This document shows, piece by piece, positions 6,029-18,381 of a stretch of 41,595 nt of DNA. Position 1 is the first letter of the stretch, and each line of letters begins with the position of its first letter. The stretch is from contig CANLBD010000003.1 in NCBI GenBank assembly GCA_947488215.1, positions 1-41,595 on the forward strand, given 5' to 3'. Source of the DNA: Myxococcales bacterium. GTDB taxonomy: Bacteria > Myxococcota_A > Bradymonadia > UBA7976 > UBA1532. A program made the translations under genes and the position numbers. Under the pieces are notes generated by a model, which did no database searches, was not told where the DNA came from, and saw only the letters and a program-made list of their open reading frames with translations.

Positions 6029-7387
6029 TCAGTAGCTGTAGGTGTAGCGCCCCATGAGGGTGTGAATCCACAGCGCCTCGTCATTTCGCGCGTCGACGAG
6101 CTCGGTCTCCAAGACCGCGTCGTAGTCGGCGCCCACGCGGTGCGCGCGGCTCGGTCGCCAGTCGGCCCCGCCGCCCACGAGCCAGACCGACTGTGACTCG
6201 TCAAAGAGGCGGCCGCGGTCCGTCTCGCGGCCCACCGTGCGGCCATTGAACCACGTCGCGCGCCCGTTGACGGCAACCTCCCCCGTCACGTCGTAGTCGG
6301 CGGTGACCGCGGCGAGCCACGTATCGGACTCGAAGCCGTTGTGAAACTGGGCCTGAAGATCGACATCGAGCCCGACGACGAAGGCGTCCGACTGCCGAAC
6401 GCCGATGGTCGAGAGCCACGCAGTGCGGCCGTCCTGCGAGCGGTGCTTCCACTCAAGGCTCTGGTACTCGCGCAGGTCGTCGGGCAGGCGAAATGTGACC
6501 GTCAGGCGCGCGCGCTCGTAGACGAGGTCGAGCACTTCGTCGCCAATGAGCAGCGCCTGGTTGGGCTCAACGACGTTTCGATACACCGAGGCGTCGCGGT
6601 ACTGCTCGATGGCGTAGCGGCTCAGGTTCAGGGTCAGCTTCACATCGTCGATCGGCGCATAGTCGGCCGTCACGAGTGCGGTCGTGAGCGTGGGCGTGTC
6701 CACGAAGTCGGCGACGAGGTAGGTCGCGAAGAAGAGGCCATCCGCCGCGCGCCAGTGTGTGCGCCCAAACACAAAGTGCCGGTCGAGCGCGCCGTCGCCG
6801 AGGACAGCGTTCCACGCCAGCGCCGCTTCGAGCGCGCCGCGGTGCAGGCCACCAAAGGCGCCCACGGCCTGCTTGTCAGCGCGAAAGGTCGCGTCGTAGG
6901 GGTCAGGCGAGGCGCCCGCGTAGACCCCCGTTTGCGCGCCGCGTTCCGCGGATTGCGGACCCAGATCGACCTCAACACGCGCGCCGTCGACCCACGCGTT
7001 CCCCGCCTGGTGCAAGAGCTGGCGGCCGACTGCGACCCGCACGCGCTCATTCGCCAGCGGCTGCATCAGCGCGAGGTCGCGCACCGTCTCCACGCGCGGC
7101 ACTTCGCCGAAGCGGCGCTCGCGGGCGTCCGTGAAATCGACGGTCAGCGTGGCGTCGAGCCACGCCGAGAGGCCGCCCGAGGTCAGGTCCTGAGCGCGTA
7201 CGTCCGCGTCGAGAAAGCTCAGGCCGACGTCTGGACCACCCGCCGAGTCGACGCTGTAGAGCCCCCGCAGGCGGAGCGCGCCGTCTACCCGCGGTGCGGC
7301 GTGGTCGGCGGGGTCCTCAGCCCCGCTCGCGAGGGGCGCGAGGCCGACGAGCAGCCCCGCCGTGAGCGCGGGCAGGTGACGCCTCAT
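6029..7387 (-). CDS. Outer-membrane beta-barrel (porin-like) protein in the multiheme cytochrome operon
   Basis: Signal peptide MRRHLPALTAGLLVGLAPLASGA. Many amphipathic strands, ending in MGRYTYSY* (aromatic OM beta-signal). Its ATG overlaps the upstream TGA (ATGA at 7384-7387). Confidence 0.75.
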   Translation of the reverse strand: MRRHLPALTAGLLVGLAPLASGAEDPADHAAPRVDGALRLRGLYSVDSAGGPDVGLSFLDADVRAQDLTSGGLSAWLDATLTVDFTDARERRFGEVPRVETVRDLALMQPLANERVRVAVGRQLLHQAGNAWVDGARVEVDLGPQSAERGAQTGVYAGASPDPYDATFRADKQAVGAFGGLHRGALEAALAWNAVLGDGALDRHFVFGRTHWRAADGLFFATYLVADFVDTPTLTTALVTADYAPIDDVKLTLNLSRYAIEQYRDASVYRNVVEPNQALLIGDEVLDLVYERARLTVTFRLPDDLREYQSLEWKHRSQDGRTAWLSTIGVRQSDAFVVGLDVDLQAQFHNGFESDTWLAAVTADYDVTGEVAVNGRATWFNGRTVGRETDRGRLFDESQSVWLVGGGADWRPSRAHRVGADYDAVLETELVDARNDEALWIHTLMGRYTYSY

Positions 7388-9633
7388 CGCGGCGCGCACG
7401 CAGGCACCCGGGCGTCCCCGCAGACAGCCCCCGGTCGCGCGGGGACGAAGCTGCGGGTGGTGTGGCAGTCTTCGCAGCTCGTCAGGCCGCCGGGGCAGCA
7501 CTGCGCGTGGTTTGGGGTGCGCGCCTTGTTGAAGGTGTCGGTGTGGCAGAACGCGCAGTCATTCGGTAGGCCGCCGAAGACGCGCCCCGGGTGGCACTCG
7601 CGGCACTCGACGAACCGGTGCGCGCCCGAGAGGCGAAAGCCGGTCTCATTGTGCAAGAAGCGCGCGGGCAGGAACGCCTCTTGGCCGTGGCAGTCATGAC
7701 ATGACGGCCCGAGGCTGCCAAAGTGCGGGTCGCGGTGGCAGCTCGCGCACTCCGGCCCTGTCCCCGCGAGTTGCTTGCGACGGTCGGGGCCGTGGCAGGT
7801 CTCACAGGGCACGCGGTCGTGCGCGCCCTCGAGTCGAAACGGCCCGAAGTCGTGGTTCTGGGCGGCGTTCCCGCGCCAGTCCTCGGTCGAGTGGCACTGC
7901 GCGCACTCGGGGCCACGTCGGCCGCCGTGCGCGTCCACATGACAGTCGCCGCAGTTCGTCGGCAGGCGGTACTCGTTGTCGATGTGGCACTTGTCGCACT
8001 GCACGTCGACGTGCTTGCCGAACAACGGCCATTGCGTCTGGCGAGCGTGGTCGAACGTCTCGACGCGATTCCACCCCTTGGGCTGGTGGCACTCGTCGCA
8101 AGGCCGGCTGAACTGCCCGACGTGAAAGTTCTGGTGGCAGTTGGCGCAGGCCGTGTCGATGGGCTTGTAGTGGCCGCCCTTGTGACACCCGACGCACTCG
8201 ACCTGCGCGTGGCGCCCGGCGAGGTCGAAGCGGGCGCGGGTGTGGTCGAACTCGGGGCGAATCTTGAAGTGGTCGAAGCCCTTGTGGCACGCATCGCAGG
8301 TCGTGTCCCCGAACTGCGGCCCGTGCACGTTCGCGTGGCATGACGCGCAGACGGGCTGGGTGTCATCGTCCGTCTCCGTGCCGTTCGGATGACACCGAAA
8401 GCAGGGCTGCTCGGCGTGCCGCGCGACGAGCGGAAAGCCCGTAACGCCGTGGTCAAAGCGTGTCTGCGACCATCCCTCGGGCGAGTGACACCCCTCGCAG
8501 GGCGCGCCCTTGAACGTGTCGCCGTGGGGGCTCTCCTGCGCGTGGCAGCTCGCGCAGTCCGTATCGACCGGCTTGTAGCGCCCCTGCGGGTGGCACGACC
8601 CACACTCGACCCGCTTATGACGCCCCTGCAGCGGGAAGCGGCTCATCGTGTTGTGGTTGAACTTGGAGCGGTCCTCGAACGATGTCTCCGTGTGGCAGCG
8701 ACCGCATGAGGTCGCGCCGAATTGACCGCGATGGTTGTCCTTGTGGCAGCTCGCGCACTCGCTCGAGCGCGGCCGCCAAGACTGCCAGTCATGGCAGCCA
8801 TCGCAGGTCTGCATGGCGTGCTTGCCGCGCAGAGGCCAGCCGACCTTGCTCGCGTGGTCGAAGCCGCTGACGCGCTCGAAGCCGGTCGAGACGTGACAGT
8901 CCGCGCAGCGCAGGCCCTTGAAGACCCCCGCGGGGTGCGGGTCACTGTGGCAGGTCTCACAGCCGTTGACCTCGATGGGGGCGAACCGCTTGAGGTCCGC
9001 GTGGCACTTCTCGCAGGCCACGGCCTCGTGCTTACCGGTCCGTGGGTAGCGCGTGTCCTTTTCGTGGTCGAAGCGTGGGTTGGGCAGTCGCTTGCGCCAG
9101 TCCGTCGTGACGTGACACCGATCGCACTCGTCGAGGGGCACGCGCCCCATCGGGCGCCCGTGGTAGTCCTCGTGACACGACTTACACTGCGGGCTGGTGC
9201 CCAGATAGCTGTCTCGTCCCGTCTCGGGGCGCTGTCCTTTGTGACAGTCACGACAGGCGGGGCCGATGTGTCCACCCTCGAGCGGCCAGCCGGTCTGCGC
9301 GTGGTCAAAGGTCCGCTTGTCGAGCGGCACGATGGAGCGGTCCCGTCCCAAGTGCTCGTGGTGACACGTATTGCAGGCCACCTGCGCGGCGACACGACCA
9401 TGGTAACCCTTGCCCTGCGAGATCCGCTGTCCGATGTCACGGTGACATCCGACGCACTTCTCGACGGGCACGCCGCTGAAGGCGACGTGGCACTGCTCAC
9501 AGCTCGCGGGGTTATCGAGGTGGGCGTGGGGCGCCGAGAGCGGCGGGGCGTCCGCCCATGCGGCCGACGGCCAGGACAGTGTCGCCCAGAATACGAGCAT
9601 CAGCGCGCAGAGCGCGTGCACGACGCGCCCCAC
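7384..9633 (-). CDS. Secreted 30-heme (CxxCH) multiheme c-type cytochrome
   Basis: N-terminal signal-like sequence (LCALMLVFWATLSWPSAAWA). 30 CxxCH motifs counted by hand in 749 aa. Recurrent FDH...WPLxGKH...CxxCH units. Confidence 0.95.
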   Translation of the reverse strand: MGRVVHALCALMLVFWATLSWPSAAWADAPPLSAPHAHLDNPASCEQCHVAFSGVPVEKCVGCHRDIGQRISQGKGYHGRVAAQVACNTCHHEHLGRDRSIVPLDKRTFDHAQTGWPLEGGHIGPACRDCHKGQRPETGRDSYLGTSPQCKSCHEDYHGRPMGRVPLDECDRCHVTTDWRKRLPNPRFDHEKDTRYPRTGKHEAVACEKCHADLKRFAPIEVNGCETCHSDPHPAGVFKGLRCADCHVSTGFERVSGFDHASKVGWPLRGKHAMQTCDGCHDWQSWRPRSSECASCHKDNHRGQFGATSCGRCHTETSFEDRSKFNHNTMSRFPLQGRHKRVECGSCHPQGRYKPVDTDCASCHAQESPHGDTFKGAPCEGCHSPEGWSQTRFDHGVTGFPLVARHAEQPCFRCHPNGTETDDDTQPVCASCHANVHGPQFGDTTCDACHKGFDHFKIRPEFDHTRARFDLAGRHAQVECVGCHKGGHYKPIDTACANCHQNFHVGQFSRPCDECHQPKGWNRVETFDHARQTQWPLFGKHVDVQCDKCHIDNEYRLPTNCGDCHVDAHGGRRGPECAQCHSTEDWRGNAAQNHDFGPFRLEGAHDRVPCETCHGPDRRKQLAGTGPECASCHRDPHFGSLGPSCHDCHGQEAFLPARFLHNETGFRLSGAHRFVECRECHPGRVFGGLPNDCAFCHTDTFNKARTPNHAQCCPGGLTSCEDCHTTRSFVPARPGAVCGDARVPACAPR
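7540..9309 (-). repeat. About nine tandem three-heme protein repeats within the cytochrome
   Basis: Recurring block F(D/N)Hxxxx(W/F)PLxG(K/R)HxxVxCxxCH...CASCHxxxHxGxF...CxxCH: FDHAQTGWPLEGGH, FDHEKDTRYPRTGKH, FDHASKVGWPLRGKH, FNHNTMSRFPLQGRH, FDHGVTGFPLVARH, FDHTRARFDLAGRH, FDHARQTQWPLFGKH, QNHDFGPFRLEGAH, FLHNETGFRLSGAH. Boundaries are approximate. Confidence 0.8.
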
Positions 9634-9636
9634 GCC

Positions 9637-11673
9637 TCAGTTCCCGACCGCGTAAGCGAGCGCGACGACGATGTGCAGGAGCAGCGCCCCGAACATCACG
9701 TTGCTCGCGACCACATGCACGACACGGTAGCGTTTGAGGAGCCGACCGAGGAAGGCGTGCCGACGGATCGAACGCTCCATCTTGAAGCGCTCCCGCATGA
9801 GCGCGAGCGCCTCTTTTGCCTTGCCCGCGCGAACGCCGCCCCGCTCGAGGTCGGCTCGAAGCGCCTCGATGCGCCGCCGCAATGCCTGGTCTTCACCCGC
9901 GATGCCGAGCAGCCCCTGCACGAGTGACTCTCGGTCCTCGCCGTTGTCCGCCGCGGCCGCGGCGCTCTCGGCGGCCACTAAGTCAGCGACGCGCGTCATC
10001 ATCGTCATGCCGGCGCGCGGGCTGTCGAAGAGCCCCTCGAGCTCGCGGTCGAGCTCGCCGAGCCGGAGCTCCAGCTCGCGCAGCTCGAGCTGCGCCCCTG
10101 CGCCGCTGCGCGGCACCAAGTAGAGCACGTACCGCCCCACAACGCCGGTCAGCAGCGCCACGGACATGGTCACGAACGCCGTGACGGAGAAGAGGCCGTT
10201 GAAGAGAAATGTGGTGTGAAAGAGCCCCCAGAGCCCACCGAGCGCACCCAGCCAGACGTGGCTCTCCATCCAGACCTGCACGCTGCCGAAGCGCGGCGCG
10301 TAGGCCTTGCCGAAGCGGTAGAGCTGCGTCGCGAGCAAGAACCCCGCGCCACCCCAGCCCAGCGCGTGGCTGAACCAGTCGCCTGCGCGGAAGGGCGCGA
10401 CCGGGTTCAGACCCTCTGCCGTGACACCCCACGCATGCAGCCACGTGCCGAACGTGAAGGCGGGCCAGAAGAGCCGACCGAAGCACTCGAACGACAAGAA
10501 AAGGGCGTTCAGCGCGAAGAGAGTGACCCAGAAGCGCCGCCAGCCGAGCGGCGCGCCGGGCGCCACCGCGGCCGCAGCGCCAGCGCCCGCGCGGTGAACC
10601 GCGAACTGGGGCCAAGCATCGAAGAGGCGGGCCCCATCGACCTGAAACAGCGCCCCCGTCGGGCATGCGGTGATGCACGCTTGGTCGGCGTAGCCGGAGC
10701 AGTTATCGCACTTTTGCGCGATGTTCTTGCCCTTCGCGTCCGCCGCGCGGCCAGGGAAGTACCGCGCCATATCAAGGTCCGCGATGGCGTGCATGCGAAT
10801 CGCGCCGAAGCTGCACCCGCGCGCACACGCCGTGCACCCAATGCAGTCATGCGAGATCACGATCTCTTGCGTGTCCGGGTGCCGCGACAAGTGGCCGAAC
10901 TTGCACTTGTCCAGACACTCCGGCACGCCGCAATTGTGGCAGTTCGCCGGGACCTCGGTCAGGCCGTACTTGACCTCTGTCGCGCCGAGGCGATCGGTGC
11001 CGTGCCGGTCTCGGCAGGCGTCGTAGCACCCATCGCACTCGATGCAGATGTCCATGCGCTTGATCTTCACGCGCCCGGCGAACGTGAGGCGTTGCTCCAC
11101 GAAGAAGCGCGCGATCTCTCGCTGAAAGCCCTGGTCGAAGCGCGACGCCTGCCGCTCCGTGACCGCGCGCACAGCGTCGCTGAACGCATCACGCACGGCG
11201 TCGCTCTTCTTGAGCACATAGTTCAGGTCGGCGTAGGCGATCCGCAGCGCCGTCACCGGCACCATCGCCGTCAGGCGAACCCTGCGCGTGCGGTCGTCTG
11301 CGAAGAGCTTCTGCACGTAGACCTCACCGGGCGTGAGGTAGTTGACCGTCTCAAGGCCGCGCTCGGCATCGCGCTCGGCGCTGACATGGCCCGCGAGGAC
11401 CACAAACACAAGCGAGGCGTCGTCGGGCGCGGGCGCGGCGTCGAGCAGCGTGGCCCCCCGCTCGACTTCGACGCGCGTGACGCGCTCCGCGAGCCGCGAC
11501 GCCAAGGCAGCGTCGAGCGAGGCAAACAGCGGCGTCGCGCGCAGGCTCTCACCGGTGAGCGGCGCAGCCTCAGCGTCCGCTTTGCCCTTCTTGCGGGGCG
11601 GCGCCTTTTTGACTCGGGCGACGCCGTCGGGCGGGGCGGCGCCGTCGACGGGGCGCGGCTCCTGCGCGCTCAC
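9637..11673 (-). CDS. Cyclic-nucleotide-binding-like domain + four [4Fe-4S] ferredoxin domain + multi-TM (b-type heme-like) membrane protein
   Basis: GTG start overlapping the upstream TGA (GTGA 11670-11673). CNB-like N-terminus. Cys clusters CIECDGCYDAC, CHNCGVPECLDKC, CIGCTACARGC and CDNCSGYADQACITACP (DmsB/NrfC-like). C-terminal TM helices carry His (FSHALGW, ESHVWLGALGGLWGLFH, VVHVVASNVMFGALLLHIVV). Confidence 0.85.
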   Translation of the reverse strand: MSAQEPRPVDGAAPPDGVARVKKAPPRKKGKADAEAAPLTGESLRATPLFASLDAALASRLAERVTRVEVERGATLLDAAPAPDDASLVFVVLAGHVSAERDAERGLETVNYLTPGEVYVQKLFADDRTRRVRLTAMVPVTALRIAYADLNYVLKKSDAVRDAFSDAVRAVTERQASRFDQGFQREIARFFVEQRLTFAGRVKIKRMDICIECDGCYDACRDRHGTDRLGATEVKYGLTEVPANCHNCGVPECLDKCKFGHLSRHPDTQEIVISHDCIGCTACARGCSFGAIRMHAIADLDMARYFPGRAADAKGKNIAQKCDNCSGYADQACITACPTGALFQVDGARLFDAWPQFAVHRAGAGAAAAVAPGAPLGWRRFWVTLFALNALFLSFECFGRLFWPAFTFGTWLHAWGVTAEGLNPVAPFRAGDWFSHALGWGGAGFLLATQLYRFGKAYAPRFGSVQVWMESHVWLGALGGLWGLFHTTFLFNGLFSVTAFVTMSVALLTGVVGRYVLYLVPRSGAGAQLELRELELRLGELDRELEGLFDSPRAGMTMMTRVADLVAAESAAAAADNGEDRESLVQGLLGIAGEDQALRRRIEALRADLERGGVRAGKAKEALALMRERFKMERSIRRHAFLGRLLKRYRVVHVVASNVMFGALLLHIVVALAYAVGN

Positions 11674-13301
11674 GGCATGAACGCACCGCCGAAGAGGTCC
11701 TGACCGCAAGTGCCATACTCAGGCACGGGCTGACCGGGCAGCGCGAACTGCACGCAGACCGTGCCCGGCTGGCACGGGATGATGTCGGGCGCGAACGGGT
11801 TGCTCAGGTCCTTCAGGCATCGGCAGGCGCCCTTCATCGTGAACATCGTGAAGACGTTCGGATCACACGGGCTGCCCGGCAGACAGACGCCCGCGCCGCC
11901 GCCACCGATGTCGCAGCTGCCGTCCGTATAGAAGCACTGCGCCGTCTCTTCGTTACACGCCAGCGTCGCCTCGTCCCCACAGGCGGCGTCGTCCGCGCAC
12001 CCGGGCGCACACAGGCCGGTCGCGGGATCGCACTGCGCGCCTGCTTGACAGTCAACGCCACCGCACGGGTTAGGCTCGCAGGTGAACGTGGCCTGGTTGC
12101 ACGCGTTTCGGGGCGGGCAGTCGGCGGTCTGCAAGCACTCGACGCAGGCTTGGTTCACGCAGAACTGCCGATTCTCGGGGCAGTCGAGGTCAGACGCGCA
12201 CATGCCACCGACGGGGCCATCGACGCAGCGATACTCGGCCGAGCAGCGCTGGCTGGGGTTCGCACACGGCGCGCCGGGACCGCACTCGCCGCAGGTGCCG
12301 GGCGCGTCCCCCTGCCCCGGCACGCACACGGGCGTCGCGCCGCCACAGGTCCCGCCACAGCGGTCGCACAGGCCGCCGGGGGGCTTGCACAGGCCGCCCT
12401 GGCAGGTCAGGCCGTCCGCGCACGCGCCGCCGCCGGGGGCGCAGCTCGCAAAGCAGAAACGCCCGCCGGACAGGTCGCCGCAGGTCAGGCCCGCGGCGCA
12501 GTCGGCGTCCGTGGAGCAGGCGCCGCAATGCGACCGCGGCGCGACGCACGCCGTCGTGGTCGGGTCGCAGACCTCGCCCGCGGGGCACCCCGTAGCGAAG
12601 CAGCCGCACCGGAAGCTCGCCGGCAAGCAGACGTTCAGGTTGGGCACGCAGCGGAAGCCGCTTGGGCAGTCGGCGTCCATGCCACACGCGGGCGTGCAGA
12701 AGGCGCCCTCGTTCCCGACGGGCGTGCAGACCGCGCCAGCGCCCAGCGCAGCGCAGTCGCTGTCCTGAGCGCAGGGCGCGCACGCGGCGCCCTCGGCGGG
12801 CGGGGCGGCGTCGGCGGGCGAGGCGGCGTCGCTGCTCGGCGGGCCGGCATCGGCGACGGGGATCGTGGCGTCCGACACGGGCGGGCTGCTGTCCGCGGGG
12901 TTGATGCACCCGCGGCTGCACTCACCGGCGCAGCACTGAAAGTCCGCGCCGAGCCCAGCGCAGTCGTCCGAGGTCGAGCAACGCACGCTGCCCGTGACGC
13001 AGCTCCCGGCGTTCGGGCCCGACTCCAGGCACTCCGCGCCCGCTGTGCACTCGAGCGCGACGCCGTCGATCTGGTGCGCGCACTCCTTGGGGCTGCAGGT
13101 GTTGCGACCGGCGAGGCAGGTGCGCCCCGACCCCGGGCAATCGTTGAGCGTGCGGCACGCCAAGGCCTTGCACGTGCTCTCTGAGCACACAGAGCCCCGC
13201 TCGCAGTCGGCGTCGACCTTACAGCCCGACGACGTCTTGTCCTCGCCACACGCCGCCATCACCCAGAGGACGGCGCACATCACCCAGAGCCGCATGACCA
13301 T
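11670..13301 (-). CDS. Cys-rich repeat lipoprotein
   Basis: Signal peptide with lipobox-like VMAAC (MRLWVMCAVLWVMAACGEDKTS). Repeated DADC...VC...C modules. An alternative ATG lies at 13295. Confidence 0.85.
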   Translation of the reverse strand: MVMRLWVMCAVLWVMAACGEDKTSSGCKVDADCERGSVCSESTCKALACRTLNDCPGSGRTCLAGRNTCSPKECAHQIDGVALECTAGAECLESGPNAGSCVTGSVRCSTSDDCAGLGADFQCCAGECSRGCINPADSSPPVSDATIPVADAGPPSSDAASPADAAPPAEGAACAPCAQDSDCAALGAGAVCTPVGNEGAFCTPACGMDADCPSGFRCVPNLNVCLPASFRCGCFATGCPAGEVCDPTTTACVAPRSHCGACSTDADCAAGLTCGDLSGGRFCFASCAPGGGACADGLTCQGGLCKPPGGLCDRCGGTCGGATPVCVPGQGDAPGTCGECGPGAPCANPSQRCSAEYRCVDGPVGGMCASDLDCPENRQFCVNQACVECLQTADCPPRNACNQATFTCEPNPCGGVDCQAGAQCDPATGLCAPGCADDAACGDEATLACNEETAQCFYTDGSCDIGGGGAGVCLPGSPCDPNVFTMFTMKGACRCLKDLSNPFAPDIIPCQPGTVCVQFALPGQPVPEYGTCGQDLFGGAFMP

Positions 13302-13330: not shown

Positions 13331-13360
13331 ACTATAACGGACACGCCCGCTGCTGAGCAA
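13331..13360 (-). promoter_or_regulatory. Putative sigma70-type promoter for the cytochrome operon
   Basis: On the minus strand: TTGCTC - 18 nt - TATAGT, about 30 nt upstream of the 13301 start. Pattern match only. Confidence 0.4.
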
Positions 13361-13440: not shown

Positions 13441-14031
13441 ATGGGCGACAAGTTACCAGACGTCTTCTCCACCCACTCGGCAGCGCGATTCTGCCGAGTC
13501 ACGCCGATGACGATCATCCGCTGGGTGGAAGAAGGCCGAATCAAAGCGTACAAGACCCCCGGCGGGCACCGCCGCATCATGCGGGGCGACCTTGAAGACT
13601 TTTGTCGCCGCGCGGGGATCCCGTTCCAGTGGGCAGAGCGCGTAGACACCGATGGCACACGGCGCCTGCTGATCATCGACGACGACAAGGCCGTCGTCGA
13701 CGCGATCCTCGACGCGGTCATCGACGAGGGCGCGGGCGACTCCGGTCAGTGGGAGGTCGAACACACGGACAACGCGTTCGACGCGGGCCGCCTCGTCTCG
13801 ACCTTTCGACCCGACATGGTCTTCATCGACACGCAGCTCCCTGGGGCGCACGCCGGGCGCATGGCGACCGCGATACGCAATGATCCGGCGACGTCCCGCG
13901 CGCGCGTCGTCGCTGTGACGCCCGAGGGCGCGCCGCGACCGGTCGAGTTCGACGACGTGCTGATTCACCCCATCGCGAAGCGCGCGGTGCAGCGCATCAC
14001 GGGGCCGCTCCCGCTCGTCAAGCCGACTTAA
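13441..14031 (+). CDS. MerR/excisionase-type HTH DNA-binding domain fused to a C-terminal response-regulator receiver-like domain
   Basis: N-terminus FSTHSAARFCRVTPMTIIRWVEEGRIKAYKTPGGHRRI. C-terminus LLIIDDDKAVVDAILD...PDMVFIDTQLPGAHAG...VVAVTPEG. Confidence 0.85.
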   Translation: MGDKLPDVFSTHSAARFCRVTPMTIIRWVEEGRIKAYKTPGGHRRIMRGDLEDFCRRAGIPFQWAERVDTDGTRRLLIIDDDKAVVDAILDAVIDEGAGDSGQWEVEHTDNAFDAGRLVSTFRPDMVFIDTQLPGAHAGRMATAIRNDPATSRARVVAVTPEGAPRPVEFDDVLIHPIAKRAVQRITGPLPLVKPT

Positions 14032-15574: not shown

Positions 15575-16486
15575 ATGAAGAATCTCCTGTCCGCTGGACT
15601 CAAGAAGCTGCGCGGTGATGACTCGAGCACGGCCCGCGACGCCCGCCCGAGCACGACGCCGCCGGCGCGGCGAGCGCACGTCATTGCCATTGCCGCTCAG
15701 AAGGGCGGCGTTGGCAAGACCACCACGACGGTGAACCTCGCCTGCGCGCTCGCTCAGCAGCCGGGTGCCCGGGTCCTGGTCATCGACATCGATCCGCAAG
15801 GGCACGTCGCCTCGTCCCTCAAGGACGCGGTTCGGATCGCGGGCACGAGCCTGTCGGATGTGCTGCTCGCGCAGACCCCGCGCGACCTCATGGACGCGGT
15901 TCGGCAGAGCGACATCGAGGGGCTATCGCTCACGCCCCCCGACAAAGCGCTCAATGAGACGGACACGCGGCTTTCGACGCGCGTCGGGCGCGAGTACATC
16001 CTGCAGGCTGCGATGGCGCGCGCGCGCGCGGAGTTCGATTGGGTCCTGATTGACTGCCCGCCCAATCTCGGCAACCTCACCCTCAACGCCTTGGTGGCCG
16101 CGGACCGCGTGCTGGTCCCCTGCGACATGAGTATTCTCGCCTTCGAGGGCGTCGCGGACCTGCTCGGGACGGTGCGCGTCGTGAACGACCGCCTGCGACA
16201 CCCGCTCGAGGTGCTCGGGATTCTGCGCACGCGCGTGGACGGCCGCACGCAGCAGATCAACGAGGCCATCGGCGGCGCGCTCGACGACAACTATCGAGCG
16301 CTGCTGCTCGAGACGAGCATCCCGGTGAACAGCGCGCTCGCGCAGGCGCAGGCCGCGGGCAAGAGCATCTTTCAGTACGCGCCGACGTCGCGCGGTGCGC
16401 AGGCGTATCGGGCGCTGGCGCGTGAGGTCGCCGGTCGCGTCACGTCGGGCAAGGCTGAGAGCGCACGGCGCATGGCGCGGCCATGA
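15575..16486 (+). CDS. ParA/MinD-family ATPase
   Basis: AIAAQKGGVGKTTTTVNLACALA (deviant Walker A); VLVIDIDPQGHVASSL; DWVLIDCPPNLG. Start ATG at 15575 (alternative GTG at 15557). Confidence 0.93.
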   Translation: MKNLLSAGLKKLRGDDSSTARDARPSTTPPARRAHVIAIAAQKGGVGKTTTTVNLACALAQQPGARVLVIDIDPQGHVASSLKDAVRIAGTSLSDVLLAQTPRDLMDAVRQSDIEGLSLTPPDKALNETDTRLSTRVGREYILQAAMARARAEFDWVLIDCPPNLGNLTLNALVAADRVLVPCDMSILAFEGVADLLGTVRVVNDRLRHPLEVLGILRTRVDGRTQQINEAIGGALDDNYRALLLETSIPVNSALAQAQAAGKSIFQYAPTSRGAQAYRALAREVAGRVTSGKAESARRMARP

Positions 16487-18381
16487 AGCGGCGCGCGTGC
16501 GCGTTCGCTACGCTGGCTCTCCTTGCGACGGCGTGCGCGGACAGCGAACGCATTGAGCGGCTCACCGACCCGGACGCCGCGCTCGCGACGGACCTGCGAC
16601 CGCTGACGGACCTTGTGCCCCTCACCGACAGACCCTGTGAGCCCGCCGCCGAGGTCTGCAACGGGCTCGACGACGACTGCGACGGCCTCGTTGACGACGC
16701 GGACCCCGACATCGCCGCGGCGACCTTCGACGACGCGGAGAACTGCGGCGCGTGCGGCGAAGTCTGCACCGCGCCCAACGGCGAGGCCGATTGCCGCGGG
16801 GGCGCCTGCGTCGTCTCGGCGTGTGAGCCGGGGTTCAGCGACTACAACGGAGACGTCACGGACGGCTGCGAGAGCGATTGCCAGCTCAGCGAGGGCGGCG
16901 CCGAGCGGTGCGACGCGGTCGACAACGACTGTGACGGCGTCGTTGACGAGGGCTGGGCGCTCGAGAGCGACCGGGAGAACTGCGGCGCCTGTGACAACGC
17001 CTGCCCAGAGGCGGCCCAGGGCAACGTGCAGTGCGTCTCCGGTGCGTGTGCGCTCGTGGCGTGCGAGCCGGGTTTCGTCGATGCGGACGCCGAGCTGAGC
17101 AACGGCTGCGAGTACGCCTGCCTCACGCGTTCGACCCCCGAGGCCGTCGAGTTCTGCAATGGCCTCGACGACGACTGCGATACCCGCGTCGACGAGGCCC
17201 CCGATCTGGCGCCGCCCAGCGAGGACTACTGCGGCCAAAACGGCGTGTGCGCGTACGAGTGTGTCGTCGACGCCGACTGCGGCCCCGCCGAGGTCTGCAA
17301 CGCCGGCCACGTGTGCGTGCCGAGCGCAGGCGCGCCGCCCGAGGTGAGCTGCGCCGTGGACGCCGATTGTCAGGCGCTCCACCGAGGGCTCGCCTGTGTG
17401 GGCGTGGTCGCGCTCGACGCCGGCGTTCCCATGACCACGCGCCGCTGCGTCGAGCGCATTCACGCCCCTCTCTGCGATGCCGACGCGGGCTATCGCTGCG
17501 CGCGCCCTCCGGAGCACCGCGTGGGTGCCGAGGTCGGCGCATGTGATGGCCTCGACAACGACTGCGATGGACGCACGGACGAGGACTTCGTCGACGCGCT
17601 CTTCGCGGACGGACCCGCGCGTCAGCGGGTGCGGGTGTGCGCCGCGGGCGAGGGCGCGTGCCGCGTCGAGGGCCGCTACGTATGCACCGCGGACGCGCTG
17701 AGCACGGCGTGCACAGCGGTCGCCCTCGCCCCCGAGACCAACGTCGACGATGACTGCGACGGTGAAGACGACGACTGCGATGGCACCGCCGACGAGGACT
17801 TCGCGGACGCCTGGGTCCGCGTGGGCGGCGTCGAGGTCTTCGCGTTCGAGGCCAGCCGACCCGGCGCCACTGCAGACGCCGAGGGCCGTGACCTGACCCC
17901 GGACGACGCCGCTGTCTCCTTCGTCGAGGGGCGCGCGTGCAGCCGCGCCGGCGTTCGACCATGGGCGAACGTCAGCTGGGCCGAGGCGGACGCCGCCTGC
18001 CGCGCGCTCGGTGCGCGCCTGTGCTCAGGCGCAGAGTGGGCCCTGGCGTGCGGCGGCCCCGGGGCGCAGGCCTACCCCTACGGCGCGGCCTACCAGCCGA
18101 ACACCTGCAACGGCGGCGAGCTGGATGCCGACCCGCGTCAACCAGGCGACCAAGACGCGCCGCGGCCGACCGGCTCGCTGGCGACGTGCGCGAGAGGCGG
18201 CATCTTCGACCTCTCGGGTAACCTCAAGGAATGGACGGCCGACCTCGTCGATGGGCTTCGGCCCGTGCGCGGGGGCGGTTACGAGAGCAACATCCCCGCG
18301 GGGCTGGCATGTGGCCAGACCCAAGACCTAAAGCCTGAGGAGCTGCGCTCCTCGACCTTGGGCTTTCGCTGCTGCCGCTGA
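16483..18381 (+). CDS. Lipoprotein with MopE-like CNGLDDDCDG repeats and a C-terminal formylglycine-generating-enzyme (FGE/sulfatase-modifying factor)-like domain
   Basis: Lipobox LLATAC. Repeats CNGLDDDCDGLVDD, CDAVDNDCDGVVDE, CNGLDDDCDTRVDE, CDGLDNDCDGRTDE and DDDCDGTADE. C-terminus WANVSWAEADAACRALGARLCSGAEWALACGG...FDLSGNLKEWTAD...RGGGY...LGFRCCR. ATGA overlap with the upstream gene. Confidence 0.88.
   Translation: MKRRACAFATLALLATACADSERIERLTDPDAALATDLRPLTDLVPLTDRPCEPAAEVCNGLDDDCDGLVDDADPDIAAATFDDAENCGACGEVCTAPNGEADCRGGACVVSACEPGFSDYNGDVTDGCESDCQLSEGGAERCDAVDNDCDGVVDEGWALESDRENCGACDNACPEAAQGNVQCVSGACALVACEPGFVDADAELSNGCEYACLTRSTPEAVEFCNGLDDDCDTRVDEAPDLAPPSEDYCGQNGVCAYECVVDADCGPAEVCNAGHVCVPSAGAPPEVSCAVDADCQALHRGLACVGVVALDAGVPMTTRRCVERIHAPLCDADAGYRCARPPEHRVGAEVGACDGLDNDCDGRTDEDFVDALFADGPARQRVRVCAAGEGACRVEGRYVCTADALSTACTAVALAPETNVDDDCDGEDDDCDGTADEDFADAWVRVGGVEVFAFEASRPGATADAEGRDLTPDDAAVSFVEGRACSRAGVRPWANVSWAEADAACRALGARLCSGAEWALACGGPGAQAYPYGAAYQPNTCNGGELDADPRQPGDQDAPRPTGSLATCARGGIFDLSGNLKEWTADLVDGLRPVRGGGYESNIPAGLACGQTQDLKPEELRSSTLGFRCCR

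Follow-up and report, generated by a model that had tools for sequence, protein, structure and literature searches.

The stretch of DNA analysed here, referred to below as the window, comprises 41,595 nucleotides of contig CANLBD010000003.1 from a Myxococcales bacterium. According to its list of open reading frames, four genes follow each other on the minus strand and encode a Cys-rich lipoprotein, a CNB/Fe-S/transmembrane protein, a 30-haem cytochrome and an outer-membrane beta-barrel, in this order. The features considered are as follows.

13441–14031, plus strand: divergent gene for a protein with HTH (MerR/excisionase-like) and receiver domains, kept beside the cassette in family f1
13331–13360, minus strand: promoter-like element TTGCTC-N18-TATAGT, 29 nt upstream of the gene 1 start codon, conserved across loci
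11670–13301, minus strand: gene 1, Cys-rich lipoprotein, 543 aa, 76 Cys, lipobox VMAAC
9637–11673, minus strand: gene 2, putative electron-entry protein of the inner membrane, 678 aa when counted from the GTG of the GTGA overlap
11161–11547, minus strand: cNMP-binding-like domain of gene 2, residues 43–171, Pfam score just below the cut-off
10639–11055, minus strand: four-cluster [4Fe-4S] domain of gene 2, residues 207–345, 16 Cys
9640–10533, minus strand: membrane domain of gene 2, residues 381–678, HX13H in TM3 and TM5, [ST]GXXG in TM4
7384–9633, minus strand: gene 3, secreted 30-haem c7-type cytochrome, 749 aa, 30 CXXCH
6029–7387, minus strand: gene 4, outer-membrane beta-barrel with signal peptide, 452 aa when counted from the ATG of the ATGA overlap

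Genes 1 and 2 overlap by GTGA, genes 3 and 4 by ATGA, while 3 nt lie between genes 2 and 3 (TGA-GGC-GTG); two longer frames reaching upstream of the GTGA and ATGA starts of genes 2 and 4 are mechanical extensions. All four frames with their coordinates, strand, overlaps and 3-nt gap had already been described in an earlier sequence-only reading and are present in the window, as is the sigma70-like promoter it had placed upstream. The exact sequence of this promoter occurs only once in the 2.7-Mb MAG. Its relaxed form TTGCY-N19-TANNNT, with the 18-nt spacer preserved, was registered upstream of the cassette in 9 out of 9 loci (the window and eight relatives), one copy per locus, while only 1–27 of 2000 dinucleotide shuffles per region contained a match. 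A generic sigma-70 scan did not call the site, which has 8/12 matches, and it was recovered by cross-locus comparison. The conserved promoter supports a single transcription unit, the synthesis of which would start about 30 nt ahead of gene 1. Thus overlaps, conserved gene order and conserved promoter speak in favour of the co-transcription assumed in the sequence-only reading. The promoter region is common to the operon and the divergent HTH/response-regulator gene, and the product of the latter may be considered as a candidate regulator of the cassette.

Conservation of the neighbourhood, which had been proposed as a check of the earlier reading, was assessed in 284 sampled genomes of the phylum. 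Relatives of gene 2 (E 1e-10) were found in 46 of them and cytochrome matches (E 1e-100) in 32, some of the latter being shorter or partial paralogs. Most of the relatives are MAGs known from sequence alone, and at least one, recognised by its run accession, presumably originates from an ocean-survey sample. Members of family f1 retain the order of lipoprotein, gene 2, 30-haem cytochrome and barrel, which in many cases is flanked by frr and the HTH/receiver gene, and one MAG of this family (G266) has two extra ORFs separating genes 2 and 3. The same order recurs in relatives from class f7, two of which (G234 and G257) have only the cytochrome/barrel half in the stretches examined. In order f2 (L190–L192 of genomes G170, G127 and G204) the cassette is split, so that genes 1 and 2 reside on one contig and genes 3 and 4, adjacent to each other, on another contig of the same genome. 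This splitting may be viewed as a natural check on which genes form a unit. Porin-cytochrome systems are generally recognised by a gene for a secreted multihaem cytochrome lying directly next to one for an outer-membrane barrel, and this arrangement was found in all 17 barrel-bearing genomes of the class, including the window and three split cassettes, although in one of them (G165) the cytochrome gene runs off the contig. In L045 (G058) and L189 (G257) the cytochrome gene contains a stop or a frame break, which may reflect either assembly error or decay.

Distant loci of Myxococcota contain gene 2 followed by a cytochrome with 25–30 CXXCH motifs and then by a larger barrel. Profile comparison relates such barrels to gene 4 (97%, E 1.2e-10 and 96%, E 5e-9), with the reservation that shared barrel composition can inflate these scores. 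The cassette with the larger related barrel occurs in Kofleriaceae, Nannocystineae and other Myxococcota. Since the full gene set recurs in many genomes, the association is far beyond chance, and the four genes represent a conserved Myxococcota cassette found across much of the phylum.

The product of gene 2 combines a degenerate cNMP-binding-like domain, four [4Fe-4S] clusters and a five-helix putative di-haem b domain, which means that all parts seen in the sequence-only reading were found, with two additions: degeneracy of the first domain and the motif-based assignment of the last one. The cNMP-like domain scores 26.3 bits against the Pfam cut-off of 27.5 and has no conserved phosphate-site Arg in the alignment, so that a role in structure and one in ligand sensing are equally likely. 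A cyclic-nucleotide switch was considered and, in view of the degenerate binding cassette, not adopted. The 16 cysteines of the Fe-S part form four groups between residues 210 and 337 and are invariant in 15 homologs. The same is true for H472/H486 and H653/H667, both arranged as HX13H, in TM3 and TM5, respectively. W is mostly conserved in the TM3 motif, Y or W is found in that of TM5, and TM4 contains [ST]GXXG. Five transmembrane helices with WX3HX13H on TM3 and TM5 and SGXXG on TM4 are the features of inner-membrane proteins of the PCC3 and PCC4 systems, where this signature was attributed to two b haems (He et al. 2017, PMC5566968). Based on these motifs one can assume that the membrane part of gene 2 is a di-haem b protein: the histidine pattern is there, and the haems would follow from it. 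Charges of the loops, interpreted by the positive-inside rule, place the Fe-S domain and the long TM4–TM5 loop on the predicted cytoplasmic side. A stand-alone inner-membrane protein of 336 aa is a homolog of the membrane domain (97.9%, E 5e-13); its gene adjoins that of a cNMP/Fe-S/flavin protein in a gammaproteobacterial MAG, and stand-alone relatives of this domain weakly match cytochrome b561. In several related loci Pyr_redox is fused either to the cNMP/Fe-S protein or to a neighbouring tetrahaem/Fer4 protein. Mainly because of these fusions we propose that gene 2 of the window, itself devoid of a flavin domain, may be linked to cytosolic ferredoxin or NAD(P)H.

Gene 3 encodes a signal peptide and exactly 30 CXXCH motifs, in line with the 30-heme secreted cytochrome suggested earlier. 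All 30 motifs are invariant in 14 close homologs, as are exactly 30 of the 36 other histidines. Since 30 invariant CXXCH histidines are accompanied by 30 invariant distal ones, every haem can be bis-His. Across 27 cytochrome sequences the 90 haem residues show little or no variation. In distant homologs with 25–29 CXXCH the missing motifs are mostly replaced by CX3-5CH, and the haem count is kept at or near 30; the exceptions are two sites, one in L098 and one in L099, at which the first Cys is absent. Variability in haem number among these homologs was rejected in view of the CX3-5CH variants seen on motif inspection. The sequence has a period of ~67 aa per three haems and ~25 aa per haem, which gives about ten c7-like modules, and PF14522 matches it in 10 stretches (E 8e-35). 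Judging from the sequence, tandem triheme units with bis-His haems, typical of the c7 type, are thus predicted for gene 3. Its best PDB profile matches are the dodecahaem protein 3ov0 and sixteen-haem cytochromes. A low residues-per-haem ratio is taken as a mark of conductive wires (He et al., PMC5566968). The AlphaFold model of the cytochrome is poor (pLDDT 61), supports neither a rod length nor a fit to the barrel, and counts against the reading of the cassette as a conduit.

For gene 4 AlphaFold gave a barrel of 22 strands with mean pLDDT of 80, which together with the signal peptide bears out the outer-membrane beta-barrel recognised earlier. No Pfam or NCBIfam family matched it, and neither gene 4 nor its 16 homologs matched the Pfam family MtrB_PioB at E 0.5. 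A Foldseek search against PDB returned generic barrels only, with no close match and TM-scores of at most 0.53 among the matches listed, and this generic character also counts against a conduit. With 22 predicted strands the modelled barrel would be larger than solute porins, which have 16–18. It does not look like the known solute transporter without a cytochrome that had been named as an outcome speaking against the sequence-only reading, for it has no family and is adjoined by the cytochrome gene in 17 of 17 genomes. The size of the barrel, the lack of a solute-porin family match and this constant adjacency, preserved even in split cassettes, are at odds with another interpretation, in which the 30-haem protein stores or relays electrons in the periplasm, as a buffer for the reductases located there, and the barrel, though part of the operon, serves as an ordinary porin. 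So is the presence of related barrels after the cytochrome in loci of the Kofleriaceae type. Such a store would be compatible with the absence of an extracellular cytochrome gene from the operon, with the suggestion that large cytochromes serve as capacitors (PMC11495043), and with three distant Myxococcota loci having no called barrel directly after the cytochrome, namely L090, where the contig ends, L087 and L103, where there are other or no called genes. On balance we consider it unlikely.

The lipobox VMAAC and 76 cysteines of gene 1 agree with the Cys-rich lipoprotein reported for this position. It has only a weak Myxo_Cys_RPT match, and its homologs adjoin gene 2 in family f1, order f2 and class f7. 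It is probably an accessory protein anchored to the surface or envelope. Since a lipoprotein with so many cysteines belongs to the operon and is conserved together with gene 2, one could imagine that the barrel exports or assembles it, while the redox proteins handle its disulphides and have nothing to do with respiration. In split cassettes, however, the lipoprotein goes with gene 2 rather than with the barrel, no homolog of it was found in the distant Myxococcota loci that carry genes 2 and 3 with the larger barrel, and none of the four proteins was found to contain a thiol-oxidoreductase domain, all of which makes this explanation highly improbable.

In the open-access literature we found no description of this cassette. 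The best reading is that it is related to, yet distinct from, known or proposed porin-cytochrome systems, with PCC4 as the closest one. PCC4 includes a porin, periplasmic 4-, 5- and 10-haem cytochromes and a five-TM protein with two WX3HX13H motifs and SGXXG (He et al. 2017, PMC5566968). The cassette shares with it the combination of a porin, periplasmic multihaem cytochrome and five-TM His-motif protein, as well as the lack of an extracellular cytochrome, and the Fe-S gene that lies beside PCC4 in its subgroup II (PMC5566968) adds to the likeness. The differences are that here the Fe-S and membrane parts are fused in one polypeptide with no flavin domain, that one 30-haem cytochrome stands in place of the 4-, 5-, 10-haem set, that a Cys-rich lipoprotein is present, and that the barrel has no detectable homology to the PCC4-like porin of Methylococcaceae, loci which we assigned to this type from gene content. 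A relationship between gene 4 and the Methylococcaceae porin was rejected, as profile comparison detected no homology. PCC3 has a periplasmic cytochrome with 21–27 haems and barrels of up to 42 predicted strands (He et al. 2017; for Gallionellaceae, PMC10734462). Its very large periplasmic cytochrome with few residues per haem, its porin and its five-TM protein with the same His motifs resemble the cassette, which, in turn, has one cytochrome gene in the operon instead of the periplasmic and extracellular giant pair, 22 predicted barrel strands versus up to 42, and an inner-membrane protein fused to cNMP/Fe-S domains.

With MtrCAB, MtoAB and PioAB only the concept of a barrel and a periplasmic multihaem wire is common, whereas the cytochrome here is a c7-like 30-haem protein and not a DmsE/MtrA-type decahaem one, the barrel does not match MtrB_PioB, and genes for a CymA-type tetrahaem protein or MtrC are absent from the operon. 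The octahaem OmaB and dodecahaem OmcB of the Geobacter OmbB-OmaB-OmcB Pcc differ from gene 3 in haem number. The cytochrome itself resembles the c7-type GSU1996 of Geobacter (PDB 3ov0), its best PDB profile match, in tandem c7 modules and bis-His haems; in contrast to GSU1996, which has 12 haems and is not known to have a barrel or a cNMP/Fe-S partner, it is built of ten modules and encoded in an operon with a barrel. The cassette is set apart as its own variant because it lacks the porin family and 4/5/10-haem set of PCC4, the two giant cytochromes of PCC3 and the MtrB family of Mtr. The earlier statement that the locus matches neither Mtr nor Geobacter Pcc thus holds on the features compared, which include the absence of MtrB_PioB for Mtr and the haem numbers for Geobacter Pcc, but that reading overlooked the closest kinds, PCC3 and PCC4, with which the haem-b signature is shared (He et al. 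2017, PMC5566968).

Taken together, sequence data and one structural model lead us to assume, with a probability of about 0.6, that the products of the operon form an electron conduit of the porin-cytochrome kind across the envelope. On the cytoplasmic side the [4Fe-4S] clusters of gene 2 would trade electrons with a cytosolic carrier, either ferredoxin or NAD(P)H via a flavoprotein, and two b haems at the four-histidine site of TM3 and TM5 would pass them across the inner membrane. The 30 haems counted in ten tandem c7-like triheme modules may then bridge the periplasm, and the cytochrome might hand electrons over at or through the 22-strand barrel, with which it is paired in the genomes and into which it would be inserted. 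The trans-envelope electron transfer proposed in the sequence-only reading is supported, while electron flow itself, its direction and passage of haems through the barrel are its conjectural elements. Further circumstances count against the conduit: no extracellular cytochrome is encoded in the operon, the relatives are mostly MAGs known from sequence alone, the Cys-rich lipoprotein has no evident part in it, and insoluble acceptors are not obvious in the environment of the presumed ocean-survey relative.

Electrons may flow either way, gene 2 being probably fed by the cytosolic carrier or feeding it. It is possible, though somewhat doubtful, that the flow is inward, so that electrons from Fe(II), Mn(II), minerals or a partner cell enter by way of the barrel and cytochrome and end up in cytosolic ferredoxin/NAD(P) or in the quinone pool. 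The presumed ocean-survey origin of at least one relative would fit this direction, as does the role suggested for PCC3 and PCC4, the nearest described kinds, in oxidising Fe(II) and passing the electrons to the quinone pool (PMC5566968). A more specific form of the conduit, which can be advanced only tentatively and is on the whole rather unlikely to hold in every part, is a quinone-independent one, where cytosolic ferredoxin or NAD(P)H would reduce fused [4Fe-4S] clusters and two b haems, and a single 30-haem protein would span both the periplasm and, within a new 22-strand barrel, the outer membrane. If the conduit reading is right, many uncultured Myxococcota would be equipped for extracellular electron transfer by a distinct wire made compactly of three proteins, in which the number of haems does not vary, and there would be a specific hypothesis for coupling cytosolic reductant to the outside without quinones. 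The fusion in gene 2 joins Fe-S and membrane families that are separate in PCC4-like clusters and thereby helps to explain these clusters.

Several other loci deserve mention. In the genome to which the window belongs (L077, G000:C105, 6577–9242, minus strand) a gene for a 13-haem c7-type cytochrome overlaps that of a protein of 480 aa, Cys-free and beta-rich-looking, with RF3 (prfC) coming next, and may form a second porin-cytochrome pair; the barrel-like protein was rejected as a relative of gene 4, since homology was not detected. Proteobacterial loci L121 (5751–14097), L126 (8291–12493) and L200 (7117–12292, Sphingobium herbicidovorans plasmid) encode a flavin(Pyr_redox)-cNMP-Fer4 protein together with a small b561-like membrane protein, and these modules look like PCC4. 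In L121 they are neighboured by a 10-haem cytochrome with an FHA-like domain and a barrel-like gene, in L200 by a c7-type cytochrome. A different Myxococcota complex was observed in L064 (5869–13243), where a pentahaem protein and a gene 2-like cNMP/Fe-S/TM protein are accompanied by a tetrahaem protein fused to Fer4 and Pyr_redox, with similar sets in L066, L068, L070, L074 and L130. Further giant c7-type cytochromes, related to gene 3 and found without gene 2, are encoded by neighbouring genes with 23 and 13 CXXCH in L194 (5852–14190) and with 23 and 11 in L195 (6312–10704). Finally, the plus strand of the window codes at positions 16483–18381 for a protein that combines a formylglycine-generating-enzyme-like domain with four MopE motifs, which putatively bind metal, and a Cys-rich protein with an FGE domain is also located near the 13-haem cluster of L077.
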